Source: Microcaldota archaeon (GTDB lineage Archaea > Micrarchaeota > Micrarchaeia > Norongarragalinales > UBA10210). Taken from it: DNA of 5,898 bases. Under the pieces are notes generated by a model. It was not told the DNA's origin, ran no database searches, and saw only the letters and a program-made list of their open reading frames with translations. Below, piece by piece: positions 1 through 5,898 of this stretch (position 1 is the stretch's first letter; each line of letters starts with the position of its first letter). The position numbers and the translations under genes were made by a program. The stretch is from positions 1-5,898 of the forward strand of contig DUGE01000085.1 of assembly GCA_013331595.1 (NCBI GenBank), written 5' to 3'.

Positions 1-56
1 GTGAAAACCGCCATCCAGAACGCGTTTTCGGTCAGCTTTCTCCAGTCTAGTGGCAT
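1..56 (-). CDS. Partial small membrane-type protein, paralogue of the upstream 71-aa gene (5' end only)
   Basis: Only the first 18 codons are in the window; the gene continues past position 1. It begins with ATG at 56-54 and reads MPLDWRKLTENAFWMAVF. The start is supported by a GGAGGG Shine-Dalgarno site (minus strand, about 65-70) eight bases upstream. Its N-terminus matches the upstream 71-aa protein: DWRKLTENAFWMA against HWTKLKENHFAMMA, so the two look like tandem paralogues. The start codon lies inside the last codons of that gene, a 10-nt overlap in a different frame, which implies translational coupling in the same operon. From the resemblance it is probably another small membrane protein of the DUF2933-like kind. 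The family assignment is inferred and cannot be confirmed from 18 residues. Confidence 0.75.
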   Translation of the reverse strand, partial: MPLDWRKLTENAFWMAVF

Positions 57-262
57 GTTTTTTTCCCTCCTTTTAAGGCGGAATGCATCATGAACAGGTG
101 TCCCCCTATGCATGCGCCAATCACGATCGTGTACAGCCAAGCGCCTCCAAACCCCGCAATCTGAAGGGCCACGATTATGATTACGGGCAAGATGCAGCAC
201 AACGCCATCATTGCGAAATGGTTTTCCTTTAGTTTTGTCCAGTGTTCCCTGAATGTCGCCAT
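47..262 (-). CDS. Small two-helix membrane protein, DUF2933-like
   Basis: A 71-aa protein with two predicted membrane helices at about residues 17-35 and 41-59 and a short polar tail. Possible metal ligands are C22-C23 in helix 1, C51, H55 and H60 at the end of helix 2 (motif CIGGHLFMMH), and C70-H71 at the very C-terminus. The motif resembles the CPLMHLFMH signature of DUF2933, a family of small membrane proteins often found near bacterial copper-resistance genes; this is recalled family knowledge, not a search result. An AGGGG Shine-Dalgarno site about seven bases upstream supports the ATG at 262. It follows the 104-aa gene by 19 nt and overlaps the next gene by 10 nt, so it is an operon member. 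The biochemical role is unknown; metal binding or transport accessory work is inferred. Confidence 0.72.
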   Translation of the reverse strand: MATFREHWTKLKENHFAMMALCCILPVIIIVALQIAGFGGAWLYTIVIGACIGGHLFMMHSALKGGKKTCH

Positions 263-281
263 GCGCTTTACCCCTTGCTTT

Positions 282-596
282 TTATCCGATTATCTGCCCG
301 AGCGTTTTTCCGGTGGCTTTCTGCAAAAACGCTGGGTCAACCTGCTTCAAGCAATCCGCAAACTGGCTTGGATGGTGGGATAGGTGCTGGACGTTTGCCT
401 CGTCGTTCAGGTTGCCGCACTCGTTGCCTACCTGCAGGGCTTGTTGTTGGAAATACTGTTCGTTCGCCTGCGTTTCCAACAGCAGTCCTCTCGCATCCCT
501 GTCAAGCTGCGGTTTAGCGAAAGTCGAGAACGCGCTCCAAGCCAAGAGGAGCACTCCGACGAAAAGCATTGCGTAAACCAAATACTCGTTTTTCAT
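282..596 (-). CDS. N-terminally anchored small Cys/His protein, unknown function
   Basis: A 104-aa protein of no family I recognise. Residues 5-24 form one hydrophobic helix, followed by a short polar, Gln-rich segment (about 40-56) and then a compact domain with C60, H71, H74, H75 and C82 in the pattern CGN-x2-DEANVQHLSHHP-x5-CL. These clustered Cys and His residues could bind a metal, and with an N-out or signal-anchor arrangement the domain would face outside. I chose ATG 596 because it overlaps the stop of a short upstream ORF (TGATG) in a coupling arrangement. ATG 605 would add MLL and is possible. An AAGGGG site lies 12 nt before ATG 596 and 3 nt before ATG 605, neither ideal. The gene sits between the CCAHH membrane protein and the DUF2933-like gene, which supports a metal or thiol role by context. 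Confidence 0.72.
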   Translation of the reverse strand: MKNEYLVYAMLFVGVLLLAWSAFSTFAKPQLDRDARGLLLETQANEQYFQQQALQVGNECGNLNDEANVQHLSHHPSQFADCLKQVDPAFLQKATGKTLGQIIG

Positions 597-631
597 CAGC
601 AGCATCCGCCCCTTCTTTTTTTTCCGGTCAT
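596..631 (-). CDS. Possible 11-codon leader ORF ending GGCC
   Basis: A very short ORF, MTGKKRRGGCC, between two longer genes. Its ATG has the best Shine-Dalgarno site in this gap: GAGGTG (638-643), six bases upstream, the same hexamer used by the 72-aa gene at 3466. Its TGA stop overlaps the ATG of the 104-aa gene as TGATG. These two facts suggest ribosomes load here and re-initiate on the next gene. The peptide has a basic run KKRR followed by GGCC, echoing the GGC ends of two plus-strand proteins. It could be a real micropeptide, a coupling leader, or chance; the length gives no statistical support by itself. Confidence 0.35.
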   Translation of the reverse strand: MTGKKRRGGCC

Positions 632-637
632 GTTCAA

Positions 638-643
638 CACCTC
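638..643 (-). promoter_or_regulatory. Shine-Dalgarno site for the 11-codon ORF
   Basis: GAGGTG on the minus strand, six bases before ATG 631. It is too far from ATG 605 or ATG 596 to serve them directly, so it favours translation of the short ORF with coupling to the next gene. Confidence 0.5.
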
Positions 644-648
644 TTTTT

Positions 649-1221
649 TTACAGGAATATGGCCGCGTAAGCGGCGATTATCGCAAGACTAGCAACCGCG
701 CTTGCTTTGAACGCGACATCCCATTGCGAAGCGGAGAGATGCCGGACTATCGGGCACTTCCCGTCTATTCCCATTTTCTTGAAAACCCCTAGCATCATCA
801 CTATTCCAACCGTGTTCGAAAGCACGCCTATGAGCAAAAAGAATTCCTGGTATTGCGCCAGGACGGTTGCGAACGCAGCAAGCCCGATGAAGGGCAGGAA
901 ATCCGTAAAATGGTGCGCGCAGCAGGCGACCATTGCGGTTGTTGACATGCCTCCCGCGGCTGCAACCCCGCCCTTTGCCTTTGCCAGAGCCGCTTTTTTG
1001 GCAATGGATTTTTTGAGCACCGCGTAAAGGTAGGCTTGGATTGAAAAACCGGTTACAAGCGCGGCGATCCACGGAAACAGGCGGTTGAATTCCGACAACG
1101 CCACGCTCCACGGGTTTGTTGCAAGCATGAGCCCGAAGAATACGGCCAGCAGGAAAAGCCCTCCGGCTATTCCGGCCAGCAAAGGCCGTTTCCAAAAGAA
1201 TGCCAAAAACGCGCGCGCCAT
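649..1221 (-). CDS. Polytopic membrane protein with CCAHH motif, probable metal-related
   Basis: A 190-aa protein with about four or five hydrophobic segments, near residues 13-33, 45-68, 107-122, 126-148 and 172-190. A basic Ala/Lys linker (KKSIAKKAALAKAK) follows the second segment. The central signature is GGMSTTAMVACCAHH at 90-104, with C100, C101, H103 and H104 beside a membrane entry. The next stretch, FTDFLPFIGLAAFATVLAQY, and then GVLSNTVGI look conserved. A vicinal Cys pair plus His pair in a membrane segment suits a soft-metal site such as copper, and recalls the Cys pairs of MerT-like transporters, though overall it is not MerT. It is first in its operon, with its own TATA box and the operator at 1224-1248 directly before the ATG. 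The weak AAGGT Shine-Dalgarno lies inside that operator. Transport or metal binding is inferred. Confidence 0.8.
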   Translation of the reverse strand: MARAFLAFFWKRPLLAGIAGGLFLLAVFFGLMLATNPWSVALSEFNRLFPWIAALVTGFSIQAYLYAVLKKSIAKKAALAKAKGGVAAAGGMSTTAMVACCAHHFTDFLPFIGLAAFATVLAQYQEFFLLIGVLSNTVGIVMMLGVFKKMGIDGKCPIVRHLSASQWDVAFKASAVASLAIIAAYAAIFL

Positions 1222-1223
1222 GC

Positions 1224-1248
1224 TTTTACCTTTACAACTTTTGTAAAA
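1224..1248 (-). promoter_or_regulatory. Operator 1, probable BlaI-like repressor site
   Basis: On the plus strand this holds a perfect 7-bp inverted repeat TTTACAA-CTT-TTGTAAA (1231-1247), which contains TACA-N5-TGTA. An outer pair CTTTTAC (1223-1229) and GTAAAAG (1243-1249), separated by 13 bp, adds a third half-site. Read toward the gene on the minus strand, 21 of 25 positions match operator 2 at 2522-2546. It lies between the TATA box and the start codon, over the predicted transcription start, so a bound protein would block initiation. TACA/TGTA half-sites are typical of BlaI, MecI and CopY repressors; the N5 spacing is wider than their usual N2. Confidence 0.72.
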
Positions 1249-1264
1249 GTAATTGCCGGTCCTG

Positions 1265-1272
1265 ATTTAAAT
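1265..1272 (-). promoter_or_regulatory. TATA box for the 649-1221 operon
   Basis: ATTTAAAT, self-complementary, within CTATTTAAATCAGG on the minus strand. Its centre is about 26 bp from position 1242, giving a predicted leader of about 20 nt before ATG 1221 and placing operator 1 over the start site. It begins about 20 bp beyond the stop of the M56 gene, so this operon can be transcribed independently of the repressor operon. Confidence 0.6.
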
Positions 1273-1292
1273 AGTTTTGTGTGGAGCCGCGG

Positions 1293-2045
1293 TCACTTTA
1301 TAGAGACTTTTTTCTTTGCGGAGTTTATGTGCCTGAGCGTTTTTTGCCGCATTATTGCGTAAGCGTCGGCGTTTTGCTCTTCGGCATCGATGCTGAAGCC
1401 GAAACCCCGTACCGCGGCAAAAGGCGAGAAAATCTTGAGCATTGAAGATGAGAACTTGAACCATGCTGAGGAGTTTTTAACGTGCGCCAGCTCGTGCAGG
1501 AGTACGGCTTGCATTTCTTTTTTCGTCAGGACCTCCTGCATTCCTACGCTGATGAAAATGCGGGGTTTGAAGAACGAAGTGGAGAACGCAAAGGGCTTTC
1601 CGGAATCGAAGGAGAATGCCTGGGGCGTTTTCGCGAGACCCATGCGCCTGGATTCATTGTTGACGAATGATTGTATGCTTTTGGCCGACTTGGAGCTGGC
1701 CTTCTCGTAGTACCAAGGCACGAGGACTAGCCCTGCAGTCAGGGCTGCCATTACCACTATCGGAATCGAGTAGATCAAGAGCTGGGTAAGGGTTACTGCG
1801 CAGGTTAGCGATACGGACTGGCAGGAAAGGGATACTGCAAACAAAACCAGCGGAGTGAATAGGAAAGCCAGGTGCACGTATATCAGTGTAATTCTGGTTT
1901 TTTGCGAAAGGCTCTTGTCGGTAAGCTTGGTCAGCAGAAGCAATGCCAAAGCCATGGCTGCGACGGAAATGCTTACGTTGAACGGGTTGGACAAGAATAT
2001 TCCTATGGCGTTAGAAAGGTGCGGAAGCATTAGCTCTTCAAACAT
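1293..2045 (-). CDS. Minimal M56-family (BlaR1-like) membrane metalloprotease
   Basis: A 250-aa protein with three predicted membrane helices (about 24-44, 55-73, 87-110) followed by a cytoplasmic-side gluzincin domain. The zinc motif HELAH is at 184-188 and the likely third ligand is E223 in EEQNAD (222-227), the ExxAD pattern of M48/M56 peptidases. In bacteria BlaR1/MecR1 detects beta-lactam with an external penicillin-binding domain and triggers loss of the partner BlaI repressor. Here that sensor domain is absent; the protein stops soon after the protease core. The loop between helices 2 and 3, predicted outside, carries C75 and C82. The start ATG follows an AGGGA Shine-Dalgarno site and lies 12 nt after the repressor stop, so the two are co-transcribed. 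The probable role is sensing an envelope signal and relieving repression; the signal is unknown. Confidence 0.85.
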   Translation of the reverse strand: MFEELMLPHLSNAIGIFLSNPFNVSISVAAMALALLLLTKLTDKSLSQKTRITLIYVHLAFLFTPLVLFAVSLSCQSVSLTCAVTLTQLLIYSIPIVVMAALTAGLVLVPWYYEKASSKSAKSIQSFVNNESRRMGLAKTPQAFSFDSGKPFAFSTSFFKPRIFISVGMQEVLTKKEMQAVLLHELAHVKNSSAWFKFSSSMLKIFSPFAAVRGFGFSIDAEEQNADAYAIMRQKTLRHINSAKKKVSIK

Positions 2046-2057
2046 GATTATTCCCTA

Positions 2058-2435
2058 TTACTTCTTGAAACGCTCGTTGAAATAGCTTACTGCAGTCGAC
2101 CCAAAACTTTCCATGAGCTTGTTCACCGTGTTTTCCAAAACCGAGTATTCCAAATCTTTTTTCGATGCTTTTGCGCTGTAAACGTAGTGCTGCCCGCCCC
2201 TGCCGTAGTGGGCCTTGCGTGAAACCAGTTTTTTGTCGTGCAGCCTGTCGAGTATGACCGCTACGCTGGTAAGCGCGCATTTTCCGCGCAGCTTCTTGTG
2301 GACTTCCCTAACCTTGGCCTCGTGGCAATTGCACAATACATCCAGAACTTCGCTTTCAAGCGGGCTCAAAACCGATTTCAGCCCCTTGGTTTTGGAACCC
2401 TTCTTCTCGAAGCGGAAGCCAGTTACGTCTACCAT
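2058..2435 (-). CDS. BlaI/MecI/CopY-type winged-helix transcriptional repressor
   Basis: A 125-aa protein from ATG 2435. The core begins LSPLESEVLDVL (24-35), then KVREVHKKL and a recognition-helix region ALTSVAVILDRLHDKKLVSR (54-73), a wing with GRGGQHYVY (78-86), and a C-terminal helix pair, ENTVNKLMESFGSTAVSYF, for dimerisation. This order and length match the BlaI/MecI/CopY family, which binds TACA/TGTA dyads as a dimer. Family repressors are released by BlaR1-type proteolysis or by metal, and the next gene encodes an M56 protease, supporting a proteolytic switch. C35, C37 and C53 are possible metal or redox residues. A TTG at 2441 would add two residues, but the TATA position predicts transcription starting at about 2436, so ATG 2435 on a leaderless transcript is preferred. 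It likely controls both flanking operons and itself. Confidence 0.87.
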   Translation of the reverse strand: MVDVTGFRFEKKGSKTKGLKSVLSPLESEVLDVLCNCHEAKVREVHKKLRGKCALTSVAVILDRLHDKKLVSRKAHYGRGGQHYVYSAKASKKDLEYSVLENTVNKLMESFGSTAVSYFNERFKK

Positions 2436-2455
2436 AAACAAGACTGCCCCCCCGG

Positions 2456-2467
2456 AATATTTAAAGC
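2456..2467 (-). promoter_or_regulatory. TATA box for the repressor/protease operon
   Basis: GCTTTAAATATT on the minus strand, centre near 2462. A start 26 bp downstream falls at about 2436, one base before ATG 2435, so the repressor mRNA is predicted to be leaderless or nearly so. Confidence 0.6.
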
Positions 2468-2484
2468 TTTACAACATCTGCACC
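2468..2484 (-). promoter_or_regulatory. Weak third operator at the repressor promoter
   Basis: On the plus strand TTTACAAC matches operator 1 exactly over its first eight bases. TACA (2470-2473) is followed after N5 by TGCA (2479-2482), a one-base mismatch to TGTA. It lies directly upstream of the repressor TATA box, over the expected BRE, and also just before the divergent TATA at 2487. Binding here would give autoregulation, presumably weaker than at the two full sites. Confidence 0.45.
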
Positions 2485-2486
2485 AC

Positions 2487-2494
2487 TTTATTAA
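2487..2494 (+). promoter_or_regulatory. Candidate TATA box for the plus-strand operon
   Basis: TTTATTAA, centre near 2490, about 26 bp before position 2516 as the predicted start. Operator 2 begins about 6 bp downstream of that start. It is a less perfect TATA element than the other three in the window. Confidence 0.4.
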
Positions 2495-2505
2495 CCACTT
2501 CAAAC

Positions 2506-2518
2506 ACGAGAATCTCGT
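2506..2518 (+). promoter_or_regulatory. 13-bp palindrome at the predicted start of the plus-strand operon
   Basis: ACGAGA-A-TCTCGT, a perfect 6-bp inverted repeat with a single central base, between the candidate TATA box and operator 2. It does not resemble the TACA/TGTA elements and has no copy at operator 1, so it may be a site for a second regulator. Chance is also possible. Confidence 0.35.
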
Positions 2519-2521
2519 AAG

Positions 2522-2546
2522 TTTTACAAAAACTGTAAGTGTAAAA
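2522..2546 (+). promoter_or_regulatory. Operator 2, probable BlaI-like repressor site
   Basis: TACA (2525-2528) and TGTA (2534-2537) are separated by five bases, and a further TGTAAAA lies at 2540-2546. The outer pair TTTTAC (2522-2527) and GTAAAA (2541-2546) has a 13-bp spacer, as at operator 1. Read toward its gene, 21 of 25 positions match operator 1. It lies just downstream of the predicted transcription start and 20 nt before ATG 2567, consistent with repression. Confidence 0.72.
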
Positions 2547-2566
2547 AAAGCGGATGGTGGTTTTGG

Positions 2567-3430
2567 ATGGCTGAACACGAAAAGGACGAGAACGTGCAGA
2601 GTTTGGTTTACGTTGCTATTGCGGTTCTTGTCATGATCCTTGCTTTCAACCAGTATCAACTCGCGACCGTGAGCAGCCAGATTTCCCTTTATTCGGCACC
2701 CCGCCTTTCCTCACCCCAGGGAAGCGGGGTTGCCTCGCAGGCTTCAAACATAAACCTTCAAGCCCTGGCCGACCGGGTAATTCCGACCGGCGTTCCGGCT
2801 GTTTACGGAACCGAGCTTGGAGTGAGTTACGATGATCCGGTAGGAAGCCTGACCGTTCTCGGACTGCTCGACGGCGACTTGAATCCCGGCGGGAAACTGA
2901 AATTTTCGCAGTTGAATGCCCAGGCGCAACAGCGCTATGTGGCTATGGGCCAGATGATCGCGTGCGAATACTGCTGCGGTGCAAATGCCCTGGTGTTTCC
3001 GAACGGCCAGCCTGCTTGCGGCTGCCAGCATTCGGCTGCTATGAGGGGGTTGGCTATGTACCTTTTGATAAACCATCCAGACATGACCGACGTCCAGATT
3101 CTAGCGGAAATGGGGAAATGGAAGACGCTGTTCTTCCCGAAACAGGTTTTGAGCAAGGCGATTTCCTTCGCTTCAGCCGGGTTGGATTCCAACATCAACA
3201 CGATAGACTTGACTTCGGAAAAATTCCGTGATTTCAAGGCATCCGCAATTTCGACGTCTTCCGGAAGCCCTGCATCATCAGGCTCAATCGATACGAGCGG
3301 TTGGTCGGAGGACGAGAAAATGAATTACGAAATGCATGGAATCATCCCCGCAAGAGTCCAGCAAAGCACCAGTTCAGGAAGCGCTGGTGGCGTGCTTGCG
3401 AACGCGCCGGACATGGTCGGCGGATGCTGA
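2567..3430 (+). CDS. Membrane-anchored CGC-type cysteine protein with MVGGC tail
   Basis: A 287-aa protein. Residues 12-28 are a membrane helix with an acidic N-terminus (MAEHEKDEN), so the rest is probably outside. A Ser/Gln-rich linker runs to about 65. The core is C133-x2-C136-C137, then C151-G-C153 with H155, then AMRGLAMYLL, H170, and DVQILAEMGKWKTLFFP (175-191). The ACGCQH segment and what follows resemble the PCYCGC-motif proteins, which are secreted cysteine proteins of uncertain, possibly copper-related, function; this is my judgement by eye. A Ser/Gly-rich stretch (226-276) leads to the final APDMVGGC, identical to the end of the next protein. GGTGG six bases before ATG 2567 is the likely Shine-Dalgarno. 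First gene of the plus-strand operon, behind operator 2. The Cys/His core probably binds metal; the tail's role is unknown. Confidence 0.82.
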   Translation: MAEHEKDENVQSLVYVAIAVLVMILAFNQYQLATVSSQISLYSAPRLSSPQGSGVASQASNINLQALADRVIPTGVPAVYGTELGVSYDDPVGSLTVLGLLDGDLNPGGKLKFSQLNAQAQQRYVAMGQMIACEYCCGANALVFPNGQPACGCQHSAAMRGLAMYLLINHPDMTDVQILAEMGKWKTLFFPKQVLSKAISFASAGLDSNINTIDLTSEKFRDFKASAISTSSGSPASSGSIDTSGWSEDEKMNYEMHGIIPARVQQSTSSGSAGGVLANAPDMVGGC

Positions 3431-3465
3431 ATTTGAAATAAAATATAAAACTGAGGTGGAGAAAC

Positions 3466-3684
3466 ATGGAACAACAGACGATTTTGGCCGCGTTGATAGG
3501 GATTTTAGTTTTAGTGAGCGTCTTCCAGGCATTCCAGCTTGTGGAGTTGAGCGGCAGGGTGCAGGGAATGAACTCATACGGCGCTCAGTCTTACTCGGTC
3601 CCGTCCGGACAGCAAAGCCAGGTAAGCGGGCAGCAACTTCCGGCCGGACTTTTGAGCGCGCCCGACATGGTAGGCGGCTGTTGA
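3466..3684 (+). CDS. 72-aa membrane-tethered protein ending MVGGC
   Basis: A short protein with a hydrophobic helix at about residues 6-24, then QLVELSGRVQG, then a Gln/Ser/Gly-rich flexible stretch (about 38-60), and a final APDMVGGC. Its only cysteine is the last residue, C72. The plan is the same as in the 287-aa protein upstream (helix, QL-x4-S-x2 segment, low-complexity linker, identical tail) but with no folded domain between. A strong GAGGTG Shine-Dalgarno seven bases before ATG 3466 supports translation. It follows the previous gene by 35 nt of AT-rich DNA and belongs to the same operon. I do not know a named family. A tethered thiol on a flexible arm, perhaps a substrate or partner of the DUF411-like/CcdA-like pair downstream, is an inference. 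Confidence 0.78.
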   Translation: MEQQTILAALIGILVLVSVFQAFQLVELSGRVQGMNSYGAQSYSVPSGQQSQVSGQQLPAGLLSAPDMVGGC

Positions 3685-3709
3685 CGCAATGCCGTCTGCC
3701 TGCCCCCTA

Positions 3710-3726
3710 TTTTTTTCAGAAAAAAG
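3710..3726 (+). repeat. T7/A6 inverted stretch before the DUF411-like gene
   Basis: T7 at 3710-3716 and A6 at 3720-3725 flank CAG, giving a weak 6-bp A-U hairpin. Oligo-T runs can promote archaeal termination, so this may reduce transcription between the two MVGGC genes and the redox pair, but it is short and unconvincing alone. Confidence 0.2.
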
Positions 3727-3739
3727 GTTGGTTTTGCCA

Positions 3740-4327
3740 GTGAAGATGCTGTTATTCGCATTGTTGGTTTTGAGCGGCCTCGTTTTCGCCTACGCGCCTC
3801 AAAGCGCGATAGTTTACAAGAACGAGGCTTGCGGCCACTGCACTTCCTACATTTCCAGCCTTTACCAAACGCTCGATTCGATCGGAGTTAAGCAGATTGA
3901 AATCAAGGATTTTTTGAGCGACCAAGAGGCAAGGGGGGACGTGGCGTCAATCCAGGATAAATTCAAGGTTCCGGTTGAACTGCAGGGGCACTTGCTAACT
4001 GTCGTGGACGGGAAGTATTTGTTCGAAGGGCATTTTCCGCTTGAACTAATGAAAAAGTTTTTGGTTGATGAAGCGCAGGATTTCGATTCCCTGGTCGTGA
4101 CGCAGGATTCGATGGGAGACGTAGATTCGTACTTCCACCTGAAGGACGGGGTGATTCAGGAATGCCCGATAAGCCAGCCCATTTCCGAATGCGATTCGCA
4201 CGCGGGGAAAAGCGTTGCCGGGCTGGACGTGTTGAAAGTGAAGTTTGATTCGAACGCGCTAGTCCTAGCTCTGCTGGGCGTTGCGCTAGTGGTTTTGGTT
4301 TTGCTTTATTCGGGCGTGATAAAATGA
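3740..4327 (+). CDS. DUF411-like thioredoxin-fold protein with CGHC motif and C-terminal membrane anchor
   Basis: A 195-aa protein from GTG 3740. Residues 2-17 form a signal peptide or membrane helix (cleavage plausible after VFA, residue 17). The motif VYKNEACGHC follows, with C31 and C34. After a helix and strand comes KVPVELQGHLLTVVDG (about 77-92), then YLFEGHFP and LELMKKFL. This pattern matches DUF411 (CGCC, GVP, VDGY, EGHVP), a small family often beside copper genes. Here CGCC is CGHC, thioredoxin-like, and the usual CHT before VVDG is QGH. C142 and C151 form a second pair, and residues 173-192 are a C-terminal helix, so the domain is tethered outside. GTG is preferred because GGTTGG lies eight bases upstream; ATG 3746 and ATG 3689 are alternatives, the last adding a non-hydrophobic N-terminus. 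It overlaps the CcdA-like gene by 4 nt. Confidence 0.8.
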   Translation: MKMLLFALLVLSGLVFAYAPQSAIVYKNEACGHCTSYISSLYQTLDSIGVKQIEIKDFLSDQEARGDVASIQDKFKVPVELQGHLLTVVDGKYLFEGHFPLELMKKFLVDEAQDFDSLVVTQDSMGDVDSYFHLKDGVIQECPISQPISECDSHAGKSVAGLDVLKVKFDSNALVLALLGVALVVLVLLYSGVIK

Positions 4328-4998
4328 GTTTCGAAACCCTGATTCCGCTGGTGGCCGTTTCTGGAGTAATCGACGGCTTGCACCCTTGCGGTTTTGCGGT
4401 TTTGCTTTTCTTCATAGCATTCCTGCTTTCGTTAGAGCACCAGCGGAAGGCAATCTTGTTGATGGGCGCGGCGTTCATTTTCGGAGTTTTCGCCACGTAT
4501 TTGCTCATCGGACTGGGAATTTTGACGGTGTTCACTTTCTTCACCCCCCACTTTATTTCCAAGCTCGGCGCTTACCTCGTCATTCTCGTGGGCTTGATTG
4601 ACTTGAAGGACGCTTTCGCCGGGACGAGCACGCTTAAAATCCCGAAGTTCGCTTCCCCGCACATCAGCAAAACCATTGAAAAAGCCACACTTCCCGCGGC
4701 GCTAGTCGCCGGGCTGTTGGTGGGGTTGTGCGCGTTTCCGTGCGCTGGCGGGATTTACGTGGCGGTGTTGGGCTTGTTGAACGCGCAAACCACCGCAATG
4801 CAAGGTTTGGCTTTGCTCGTGCTTTACAATTTGATGTTCGTTTTGCCCCTGGCTTTTGTTTTGCTGTTCGCCTCCAACCCTAAGGTGATCGACGGAATAG
4901 AGCGTTTCCAGCACAAGCACAAGAAGGCGTACAAACTCGCATTGGGGGCAATAATGATTTTGTTCGGGCTGCTGATCCTGTACGGCGGGTTCATGTGA
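4324..4998 (+). CDS. CcdA/DsbD-like transmembrane thiol electron carrier
   Basis: A 224-aa polytopic protein with about six membrane helices. The two hallmark cysteine motifs of the CcdA/DsbD membrane domain are present: DGLHPCGFAVL in the first helix (C22) and GLCAFPCAGGIY near residues 135-144 (C136, C140). In the family, one cysteine from each motif forms the pair that moves reducing equivalents from cytoplasmic thioredoxin across the membrane. The second motif has an extra cysteine here. The surrounding text, such as VLYNLMFVLPLAF, also fits the family. The start ATG overlaps the previous gene's stop as ATGA (4 nt), indicating tight coupling, so the DUF411-like CGHC protein is its likely outside partner. 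A role in cytochrome c maturation is possible, but no haem-lyase or apocytochrome gene is nearby. Confidence 0.9.
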   Translation: MSFETLIPLVAVSGVIDGLHPCGFAVLLFFIAFLLSLEHQRKAILLMGAAFIFGVFATYLLIGLGILTVFTFFTPHFISKLGAYLVILVGLIDLKDAFAGTSTLKIPKFASPHISKTIEKATLPAALVAGLLVGLCAFPCAGGIYVAVLGLLNAQTTAMQGLALLVLYNLMFVLPLAFVLLFASNPKVIDGIERFQHKHKKAYKLALGAIMILFGLLILYGGFM

Positions 4999-5009
4999 GG
5001 GGATTGTGG

Positions 5010-5126
5010 ATGATTTGCAAGAAGTGCAAGAAAGTGTTTTACGACTGTTGCGGCATAAGCCCGGTTTGCCCCGCATGTGAGAAGGGCATGAGCAAAAGCG
5101 AAATCGCCGCTTTGTTGAAAGACTAG
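5010..5126 (+). CDS. 38-aa zinc-ribbon-like protein
   Basis: A short gene with sequence beginning MICKKCKKVFYDCCGISPVC and ending CPACEKG plus an acidic-basic helix (SKSEIAALLKD). C3-x2-C6 and C20-x2-C23 are the two knuckles of a zinc ribbon, with an unusual vicinal C13-C14 between them. GAGGGG seven bases before ATG 5010 is a good Shine-Dalgarno site, and the start is 11 nt after the CcdA-like stop, so it is the last gene of the operon. It has no membrane helix and is predicted cytoplasmic. Six cysteines in 38 residues could also bind copper or zinc as a small metallothionein-like buffer. The function is unknown. The conserved pattern, Shine-Dalgarno site and operon position make it a likely real gene despite its size. 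Confidence 0.72.
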   Translation: MICKKCKKVFYDCCGISPVCPACEKGMSKSEIAALLKD

Positions 5127-5143
5127 TTTTAAGGAAACCCCTT

Positions 5144-5157
5144 CCGCGCGCGGTTTT
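5144..5157 (+). terminator. Possible terminator of the plus-strand operon
   Basis: The palindrome CCGCGCGCGG is followed by TTTT, 17 nt after the zinc-ribbon stop and just before the SDR promoter. The stem can only fold with part of the palindrome as loop and the T-run is short, so this is tentative. A protein-binding palindrome is the alternative. Confidence 0.25.
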
Positions 5158-5162
5158 GAAAA

Positions 5163-5171
5163 CTTTAAATC
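5163..5171 (+). promoter_or_regulatory. TATA box for the SDR gene
   Basis: CTTTAAATC with upstream GAAAA as a possible BRE. A start about 26 bp downstream falls near 5193, directly before the GGGGGAGGAG Shine-Dalgarno site (5196-5205), giving a leader of about 22 nt. No TACA/TGTA element is present, so this gene is probably outside the BlaI-like regulon. Confidence 0.55.
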
Positions 5172-5214
5172 CTTTGCCTGCCTTCTCGTTATCGTGGGGG
5201 AGGAGTTGATAAGA

Positions 5215-5898
5215 ATGGCTAGGCTCAGCGGCAAGGTTGCACTTATTACGGGCGCGAGCAAGGGCATAGGCGAAGGCGTCGCCCGCGTTTTCGCGAAGGA
5301 AGGCGCGAAAGTCGTTATTGCGGACGTGGATGTTGCAACAGCAAAGAAAGTCGCTTCTTCAATCGGCTTGGGTGCTCTCGCAGTAGAGTGCGACGTTTCC
5401 AACGCGGGCCACGCGAAGCAAGCGGTCGCGGCCGCAGTTGAAAAATTCGGAAAAATCGACATTCTCGTCAACGACGCGGGAATCTATCCGTTCAAGAATT
5501 TTCTCGACCAGGATTTCGGCGACCCGGCTTGGAACAAGGCTTTGGCCGTAAACGTAGAGGGCGTCAGGAACTGCACTCTCGCCGCGGCAAAGCAAATGAA
5601 AAAACAGGGCAAAGGCGGGAAGATAATAACGATTTCGAGCATTGCAGCAGTCAAAGGATACCCTGGGTTGGTGCACTATTGCACGACGAAAGCCGCGGTT
5701 TTGGGTTTCACGCGTGCGCTGGCGTTGGAACTAGCTCCTTTGAAAATAAACGTGAACGCCGTATGCCCCGGTTTGATAGACACGCCGGGAGTGCATGCTG
5801 TGGGGATGAGCAACGAAGTCGTCAGACAGACGGCTAAAACAATTCCACTGCAGTTTTCTGGAAAGCCTGAAGACATTGCCTGGGCGTGCGTTTACCTT
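5215..5898 (+). CDS. Short-chain dehydrogenase/reductase (SDR), 3' end beyond the window
   Basis: The first 228 residues of a classical SDR oxidoreductase with a Rossmann fold; the family is usually about 250 aa, so perhaps 20-30 residues are missing. Visible motifs are TGASKGIG (12-19, dinucleotide binding), D37 at the end of strand 2, which favours NAD(H) over NADP(H), D60-V61, NDAG (86-89), N113, S142, Y155-x3-K159 as the catalytic set, and CPG (184-186). The NNAG motif is NDAG here, a tolerated variant position. It resembles the 3-oxoacyl-ACP reductase or glucose/alcohol dehydrogenase type, but the substrate cannot be read from sequence. A strong Shine-Dalgarno (GGGGGAGGAG) precedes ATG 5215. 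It has its own promoter 89 nt after the previous gene and shows no functional link to the metal/thiol module. Confidence 0.92.
   Translation, partial: MARLSGKVALITGASKGIGEGVARVFAKEGAKVVIADVDVATAKKVASSIGLGALAVECDVSNAGHAKQAVAAAVEKFGKIDILVNDAGIYPFKNFLDQDFGDPAWNKALAVNVEGVRNCTLAAAKQMKKQGKGGKIITISSIAAVKGYPGLVHYCTTKAAVLGFTRALALELAPLKINVNAVCPGLIDTPGVHAVGMSNEVVRQTAKTIPLQFSGKPEDIAWACVYL

Follow-up and report, generated by a model that had tools for sequence, protein, structure and literature searches.

We describe a protein tail and the gene system that carries it, found on a contig of 5,898 nucleotides (DUGE01000085.1, positions 1 to 5,898 of the forward strand; assembly GCA_013331595.1), here called the window, from a Microcaldota archaeon placed among the Micrarchaeota. 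Two adjacent genes in the window encode different membrane-tethered proteins, a 287-residue protein with a Cys-rich domain (the core) and a 72-residue protein that lacks this domain (the companion), which end in the same eight residues, APDMVGGC. This tail belongs to one system and is no general archaeal address tag, and comparison across loci indicates that it can be carried by the core itself (in cis) or by the companion (in trans). Core, companion and tail apparently form a large, undescribed multi-gene system, as searches of the open-access literature turned up neither the tail nor the family. We give somewhat better than an even chance to a reading in which the tail Cys supplies the sixth thiol of a thiol or metal (probably copper) centre outside the cytoplasm, borne on an arm that would swing in cis or in trans. 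The features on which the argument turns are the following.

2567..3430, plus strand: core protein, 287 amino acids, with an N-terminal transmembrane helix, a CEYCC...CGCQHS domain, a SEDEKMNYEMHG motif, a flexible linker and the APDMVGGC tail
3404..3427, plus strand: cis tail APDMVGGC of the core protein
3466..3684, plus strand: companion, 72 amino acids, with one transmembrane helix (VFQAFQL motif), a Ser/Gly/Gln linker and the APDMVGGC tail, without the core
3658..3681, plus strand: trans tail APDMVGGC of the companion

The shared ending is confirmed. The core protein closes with VLANAPDMVGGC (open reading frame (ORF) 2567-3430) and the companion with LLSAPDMVGGC (ORF 3466-3684), where the tail Cys is the sole Cys of the protein, and both stop at that Cys with neither a helix nor basic residues after it, as an earlier note on this DNA had stated. 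LPXTG, PGF-CTERM and PEP-CTERM signals were rejected for want of a transmembrane helix and basic residues following the motif. Four of the eight common codons differ synonymously (CCG/CCC, GTC/GTA, GGA/GGC and TGC/TGT), also as claimed. Because 23 of the 27 terminal nucleotides, stop included, are identical, the window alone would allow a recent DNA duplication, and whether the peptide or the DNA is conserved is therefore decided by the relatives. Among 91 core/companion pairs with the same last five residues, eight match at all five codons and 83 differ at one to five of them, which bears out the earlier note's view that the peptide is what is kept. Neither protein found a match in a Pfam scan, or in an NCBIfam scan at E ≤ 0.1.

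A search with the 287-residue protein returned 443 relatives, and of the 120 that were listed and examined, the window's own included, 117 end in Cys: 93 in MVGGC, 18 in QVGGC, two in MIGGC, two in QIGGC, one in MVGAC and one in QVGSC. The remaining three comprise two that end in ...MVGG and one fragment. An alignment of 101 of the 120 (A1, from which fragments, near-duplicates and the three that lack a final Cys were excluded) has invariant columns that include C133, E134, C136, C137, C151, C153, H155, S156 and R160 together with G285 and C287 of the tail, so that among these 101 members, from which the three lacking a final Cys had been removed beforehand, the tail Cys is as invariant as the Cys residues of the core. 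A scan of a genome collection found 247 relatives, and the locus counts given below rest on the best 80 of these, which by title belong to Micrarchaeota, Aenigmatarchaeota, Pacearchaeota, Woesearchaeota, Diapherotrites, Nanoarchaeota, a few other archaea and one Buchananbacteria bin. In that last bin, labelled Candidatus Buchananbacteria (locus L070), core and companion both carry QVGGC tails, which may reflect transfer or misbinning. Exactly five Cys lie in the core domain in all 80 loci, the spacing CE[YFW]CC...C[GS]C-x-H is kept in 79 and a cis tail of the form [MQ][VI]G[GSA]C ends 74, behind a linker of variable length (21-65 residues from the FP motif to the tail Cys in the 71 cores measured). 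In the predicted structure of the 287-residue protein, the mean predicted local distance difference test score (pLDDT) is 85 at residues 281-287 and below 50 at 263-270. Foldseek comparison of the core with the PDB gave 89 matches at E ≤ 10 and none at E ≤ 0.001, and a profile search of PDB sequences gave two matches only, at E=0.24 and 1.1.

The tail follows the core across genomes. A DNA signature for MVGGC followed by a stop occurs at 71 sites in 26 genomes with the core, chosen from the 80 loci (hereafter the core genomes), with at least one site in every genome, and the reversed pattern occurs at none. Two phylum samples drawn around genomes that bear the core, of 146 genomes around a Micrarchaeota bin and 193 around a Woesearchaeota bin (339 in total), hold the core in 8 and 56 genomes, respectively; the signature is present in 61 of these 64 genomes versus 1 of the 275 without the core, and the reversed pattern in 0 of 146 and 1 of 193. 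All three genomes with a core that the signature missed carry variants, QVGGC in two (G019, locus L028; G184, L148) and IVGEC in one (G252, L149), and the single site in a core-negative genome, where no ORF of at least 40 amino acids ends, looks like a chance match. Of the 127 signature sites in the 193-genome sample, 55 are tails of the cores themselves and 69 lie within 951 base pairs (bp) of a core, 124 together, in a comparison whose core list omits nine partial, second-frame or contig-edge matches, four of which were inspected separately; the other three sites lie at a contig end (G284) and at contig positions 24 and 244 (both in G362). From these two comparisons we therefore conclude that the MVGGC tail is part of one system.

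The companion has relatives as well. A search with the 72-residue protein found three proteins, the relatives P0121 and P0123 and a fragment, P0122, identical to the window's own; all three end in APDMVGGC. The tail is thus not absent from homologues of the two proteins, the outcome that the earlier note had named as speaking against it. Within 3 kb downstream of the core, 77 of the 80 loci have one or more short ORFs that carry this type of tail; two of the other three (L023 and L064) reach a contig end and the third (L010) has the cis tail alone. In 73 of 98 nearby companion ORFs, with starts set at the longest reading, the tail Cys is the sole Cys, and an alignment of 29 companions shows nothing invariant but the last G-G-C, before which come a hydrophobic helix (QAxQL-like motif) and a linker that varies. 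Between helix and tail, 40 of 102 companion ORFs and none of the 80 cores carry, by pattern, a Met/His motif (WTENEIMNYEMHGTIPAR, YEEMMARMHPDQ; for example L011 9179-9421), which is possibly a metal site; similar stretches occur in a related family described below (A2; EEMMKAHHG) and in the window's core. The least typical bearer of the tail is a 75-residue His/Met-rich ORF ending in MVGGC about 5 kb from a core (L114 959-1186, minus strand).

Cores without a tail of their own bear on how the two proteins relate. Six of the 80 cores lack the cis tail, a state that requires three changes on the core tree, and a tail-bearing companion lies directly downstream in all six. A second type of core (type-2; CDYCC), found with or without a fused N-terminal membrane region, has no tail in ten examples (L011, L024, L025, L047, L113, L115 and L152-L155), each with a tail companion within about 0.6 kb, and a more distant third type (type-4, in L151) lacks a Cys tail beside a 57-residue companion ending in LPSQVGGC. 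Together with three further tail-less type-1 cores that have a trans tail (L156, L157 and L159; L158 repeats L063), all 20 distinct tail-less cores, of type-1, type-2 and one of type-4, lie about 0.6 kb or less from a trans tail, some of the extra loci having been fetched because a tail site lay near. In an unselected check within the 193-genome survey, each of 10 domain-spanning matches that end before the tail has an MVGGC-stop site within 1 kb; among weaker or partial matches, L161 has a cis TGGC tail and L163 and L164 are contig-edge fragments. That all 20 tail-less cores adjoin a tail-bearing companion indicates that either the core or its neighbour can provide the tail, and that the cis and trans forms are interchangeable. 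Going beyond the earlier note, the small protein is on this evidence a core-less companion, able to replace the core's own tail in trans.

The two tails of a locus also tend to agree in sequence. Residue -5, either M or Q, matches between the two proteins in 70 of 71 loci, and under permutations of companions among loci, which ignore relatedness, the observed agreement beats all 5,000 at positions -8 to -5 and all but one of 5,000 at position -4. On the tree, the Q state at -5 involves six changes in cores and six in companions.

Two related families help to place the tail Cys with respect to the domain. The A2 family (9 rows), encoded beside some cores, has the layout CC...CxCGHH...FYP and an invariant G-x-C, with ends such as TGGC and GAGSCNV; its profile is related to that of the core at E=2.9e-18, and 8-14 residues separate FYP from the Cys, which by this spacing would be close enough to reach the domain. 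A tblastn search of plasmids with an A2-type protein gave no match. The A4 family (9 rows; PCCxN...DCNHG), from seven DPANN loci and two plasmids of Burkholderiaceae, keeps a single Cys invariant in its C-terminal end, either as the last residue or close to it (EASGC, GAGACGV, GGGSCGV), and has profile relations of E=2.1e-8 to the core and 1.5e-8 to A2. Its gene in Burkholderia contaminans has heavy-metal P-type ATPase, thioredoxin, peroxiredoxin, DUF411, DsbD-domain, CcdA and ICMT-family genes as neighbours, and the one in Paraburkholderia fungorum lies near HMA-domain and P-type ATPase genes. Both families keep the tail Cys at a short distance, and not always as the last residue, which speaks for a role of this Cys in the domain itself. 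The remote relative in L162 (3482-4084, minus strand), another variant of the Cys domain, reads CCCKCWHWYAYEGLAKYLI with the end ACGGTGHAHDET and has a CCCKCWHW motif and a C-terminal DACGGTGHAHDET.

The surroundings of the core and companion genes in the window combine redox and regulatory functions.

3689..4327, plus strand: thioredoxin-like protein (212 amino acids) with a YKNEACGHC motif and a C-terminal hydrophobic helix; weak DUF411 match
4324..4998, plus strand: CcdA/SfLAP-like protein with several transmembrane segments (PF11139, E=3.4e-11)
2058..2441, minus strand: Penicillinase_R (BlaI/CopY-type) repressor, divergent (PF03965, E=2.8e-14)
1293..2045, minus strand: M56/M48-type membrane metallopeptidase beside the repressor (PF05569, E=3.5e-10)
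2524..2538, plus strand: TTACA-N5-TGTAA palindrome 5' of the core gene, a probable operator
1232..1246, plus strand: second TTACA-N5-TGTAA palindrome, 5' of a 190-residue ORF (649-1221, minus strand)

The thioredoxin-like protein, which scores 16.8 bits for DUF411 against a Pfam cut-off of 27 (a neighbour in L053 passes it with 85 bits), is likely to be the reductant donor, and the CcdA/SfLAP-like protein, with similar proteins (cluster 1.2) in 18 of the 80 loci, is likely to carry electrons across the membrane. The exact palindrome occurs twice in the window versus 0.08 expected, where it is possibly the operator of the divergent repressor at 2058-2441. In 13 of the 80 loci (L001, L003, L006-L009, L026, L028, L035, L060, L062, L064 and L080) it precedes the core ORF by about 85 bp or less. 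CopY repressors are members of the Penicillinase_R family. In 60 of the 80 loci there is a MarR-like protein (cluster 2, of which one representative was scanned) with two helices and a Cys between them, replaced by a BlaI-like repressor in the window, L113 and L115.

The metal, if there is one, is most likely copper. In the 26 core genomes, none of the 15 DUF411 matches is more than 3.8 kb from a tail site, and of the 38 HMA matches 32 are no more than 9.9 kb from one; these 32 belong to 18 of the 20 genomes in which HMA was matched at all. Within 8 kb of the core there is a copper-type ATPase cluster in 34 of the 80 loci and a cupredoxin cluster in 25 (counted by representatives, the ATPase named by eye). 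No DUF411 match occurs in 11 of the 26 core genomes. DUF411, to which CopG belongs, is a neighbour of the system and not a homologue of the tail proteins. A review describes CopG-like proteins as periplasmic, thioredoxin-like, tied to copper export and binding a Cu cluster (PMC7558416), and another paper states that little is known of DUF411 apart from a possible part in resistance to cations or in binding metal (PMC6444534). It is from the DUF411, HMA, ATPase and cupredoxin neighbours that copper becomes our best guess.

In the mechanism that we propose, the core protein would be anchored by its N-terminal helix and expose its helical domain of five Cys and His outside the membrane, and the tail Cys, on its flexible linker, would swing and dock onto the core Cys residues to complete a centre of six thiols. 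There it might act as an attacking or resolving thiol in disulfide exchange or as a metal ligand in the handling of Cu(I), either of which is consistent with the earlier note's suggestion that the arm bears a site of thiol exchange or a ligand for metal, served by the redox pair encoded next. The companion would be a core-less copy of the arm on an anchor of its own, acting on the core in trans, and lineages that have lost the cis tail would depend on it, with the thioredoxin-like and CcdA-like proteins re-reducing the thiols and supplying the electrons. The orientation, N terminus inside and C terminus outside, is suggested because the N-termini of companions are basic (MDKK, MNKN) and because the neighbours are redox proteins; the window's own two N-termini are not basic. 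A bolder version, which we hold tentatively and at less than even odds, is a modular redox or metal machine at the DPANN cell surface with a detachable GGC arm, which would be part of the five-Cys domain, repeated on one or more membrane-anchored carriers without a core, and in some lineages available in trans only. Its carriers would be interchangeable shuttles of Cu(I) or thiols among the core, copper pumps, cupredoxins and a DsbD-like reductant line, and its bacterial relatives sit on plasmids beside heavy-metal ATPase genes.

Several observations weigh against the six-thiol, copper-handling reading. The sampled genomes are mostly metagenome bins; the remote relative in L162 (3482-4084, minus strand) has no tail; and in both bacterial type-4 (A4) relatives several residues follow the tail Cys. 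Core and companion disagree at residue -5 in L019, and only three independent M/Q pairs lie on supported branches, changing in the same direction in a mean of 2.9 of the 3, so that a sign test on co-change, with few independent events, gives a median p=0.25. The pLDDT of 85 at the tail is only suggestive of contact between tail and core. As to copper, it is read from the neighbours, an HMA match is absent from 6 of the 26 core genomes, as a DUF411 match is from the 11 noted above, and 5 of the 15 DUF411 matches fall below the Pfam cut-off.

The main rival would make the companions, and the core's own tail, clients of a CcmH-like core that holds them as mixed disulfides while a metal, sulfur or cofactor is loaded. 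CcmH (PF03918; 2hl7, 2kw0) shares with the core a small helical, extracytoplasmic, membrane-tethered domain with DsbD/CcdA-type partners, and its CxxC pair has a counterpart in C133-x-x-C136, invariant within the CEYCC of the core. Mixed-disulfide chemistry on a small domain has been proposed for CcmH (PMC8975832). The core differs in having five Cys instead of two, a C-terminal thiol tail, companions and no Pfam match. We think the client reading unlikely: in 74 of 80 loci the substrate would be joined to the very enzyme that acts on it, which would be odd, and the A2 Cys, 8-14 residues past the domain, looks more like part of an active site. Nor is there CcmH support in sequence (hhalign of A1 against 8 CcmH sequences, E=0.1, probability 0.6%), and homology was rejected, CcmH being kept as a fold-level analogue only; a search for the CcmH family in 3 core genomes found none. 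An alternative to which the terminal position, the near-strict GGC and its sharing by two membrane-tethered proteins lend some appeal is the sorting, attachment or lipidation tag of the earlier note, placed by a separate enzyme (a prenyltransferase, a sortase-like enzyme or another) on two unrelated exported proteins. The ICMT-family gene near the type-4 relative in Burkholderia contaminans would suit it, yet MVGGC ends track one core family, both proteins already have an N-terminal helix, and the Cys is not last in some relatives (GAGSCNV, GAGACGV). ICMT (PF04140) occurs in 3 of the 26 core genomes and beside no core, once on the core's contig but more than 100 kb away and twice on other contigs, and no tag-processing enzyme common to most loci was recognised among the neighbour clusters, where prenyltransferases and proteases were not searched for specifically. 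We regard the tag as improbable; CaaX-like prenylation with ICMT is likewise not supported by the 3 of 26, prenyltransferases again lying outside the search.

That the tail is a redox-sensing or regulatory arm, signalling the state of thiols or metal to a membrane regulator nearby instead of joining in the core's chemistry, could draw on the MarR-like two-helix Cys proteins of the 60 loci and on the BlaI/M56 pair in the window, but a BlaI-like repressor takes the place of the MarR-like protein in the window, L113 and L115 and the tail tracks the core, not one type of regulator, which makes this quite improbable. Least credible, with very little probability left to it, is a duplication relic, in which the companion would be a deletion derivative of the core whose tail was kept by chance or gene conversion. 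Both proteins do share the helix-linker-tail layout, along with the 23 of 27 end nucleotides in the window; the comparative data contradict a relic, however, as the companion is kept in 77 of 80 loci and several DPANN groups and beside all 20 tail-less cores, and the tails of 83 of the 91 pairs have diverged synonymously. The earlier interpretation as a whole is partly supported, its thiol or metal arm agreeing with the findings and its tag not being supported.

With regard to known systems, extracytoplasmic thiol and metal handling is a familiar kind, and this tail and family are apparently new to it. DsrC and TusE resemble the arm in that they work through a conserved Cys close to the tip of a flexible C-terminal stretch, and DsrC shows that such a Cys can be the working residue (PMC3397948). 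They are cytoplasmic, however, and neither window protein has an NCBIfam match at the E ≤ 0.1 given above; core-less copies of their arm are not known. PCYCGC (PF13798) or CYCXC (seleno)proteins share a Cys-rich domain with the core, and six such neighbours (one Pfam-scanned) occur among the 80 loci, but all six lack a GGC tail; homology of the core to these six sequences was rejected (hhalign E=0.059, not significant).

DPANN archaea have small genomes and few surface proteins with assigned functions. The system described here is widespread among them (56 of 193 and 8 of 146 genomes), can be found by the simple signature of MVGGC or QVGGC before a stop, and offers a testable chemical hypothesis on a single residue. 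If the proposal is right, an active-site thiol would be a separable module moved between proteins, many DPANN genomes would hold a dedicated extracytoplasmic thiol or copper pathway, and the detachable arm supplied in trans would be a new principle, the chemistry itself being a proposal.

Other Cys-bearing proteins stand near the core in some loci. Membrane-anchored proteins of about 390 residues with repeated Cys pairs (cluster 12; L050 48-1220 and similar) occur near the core in 13 of the 80. In L113 (3836-4987) and L115 (5210-6607), proteins that adjoin type-2 cores and their companions show, by eye, three thioredoxin-like repeats with paired Cys, the second with a cupredoxin-like end. The window itself encodes, at 47-262 on the minus strand, a 71-residue hydrophobic protein ending in KKTCH, and a cluster of similar ORFs, of which one member likewise has a Cys-His end (SCH), lies near the core in 12 loci.
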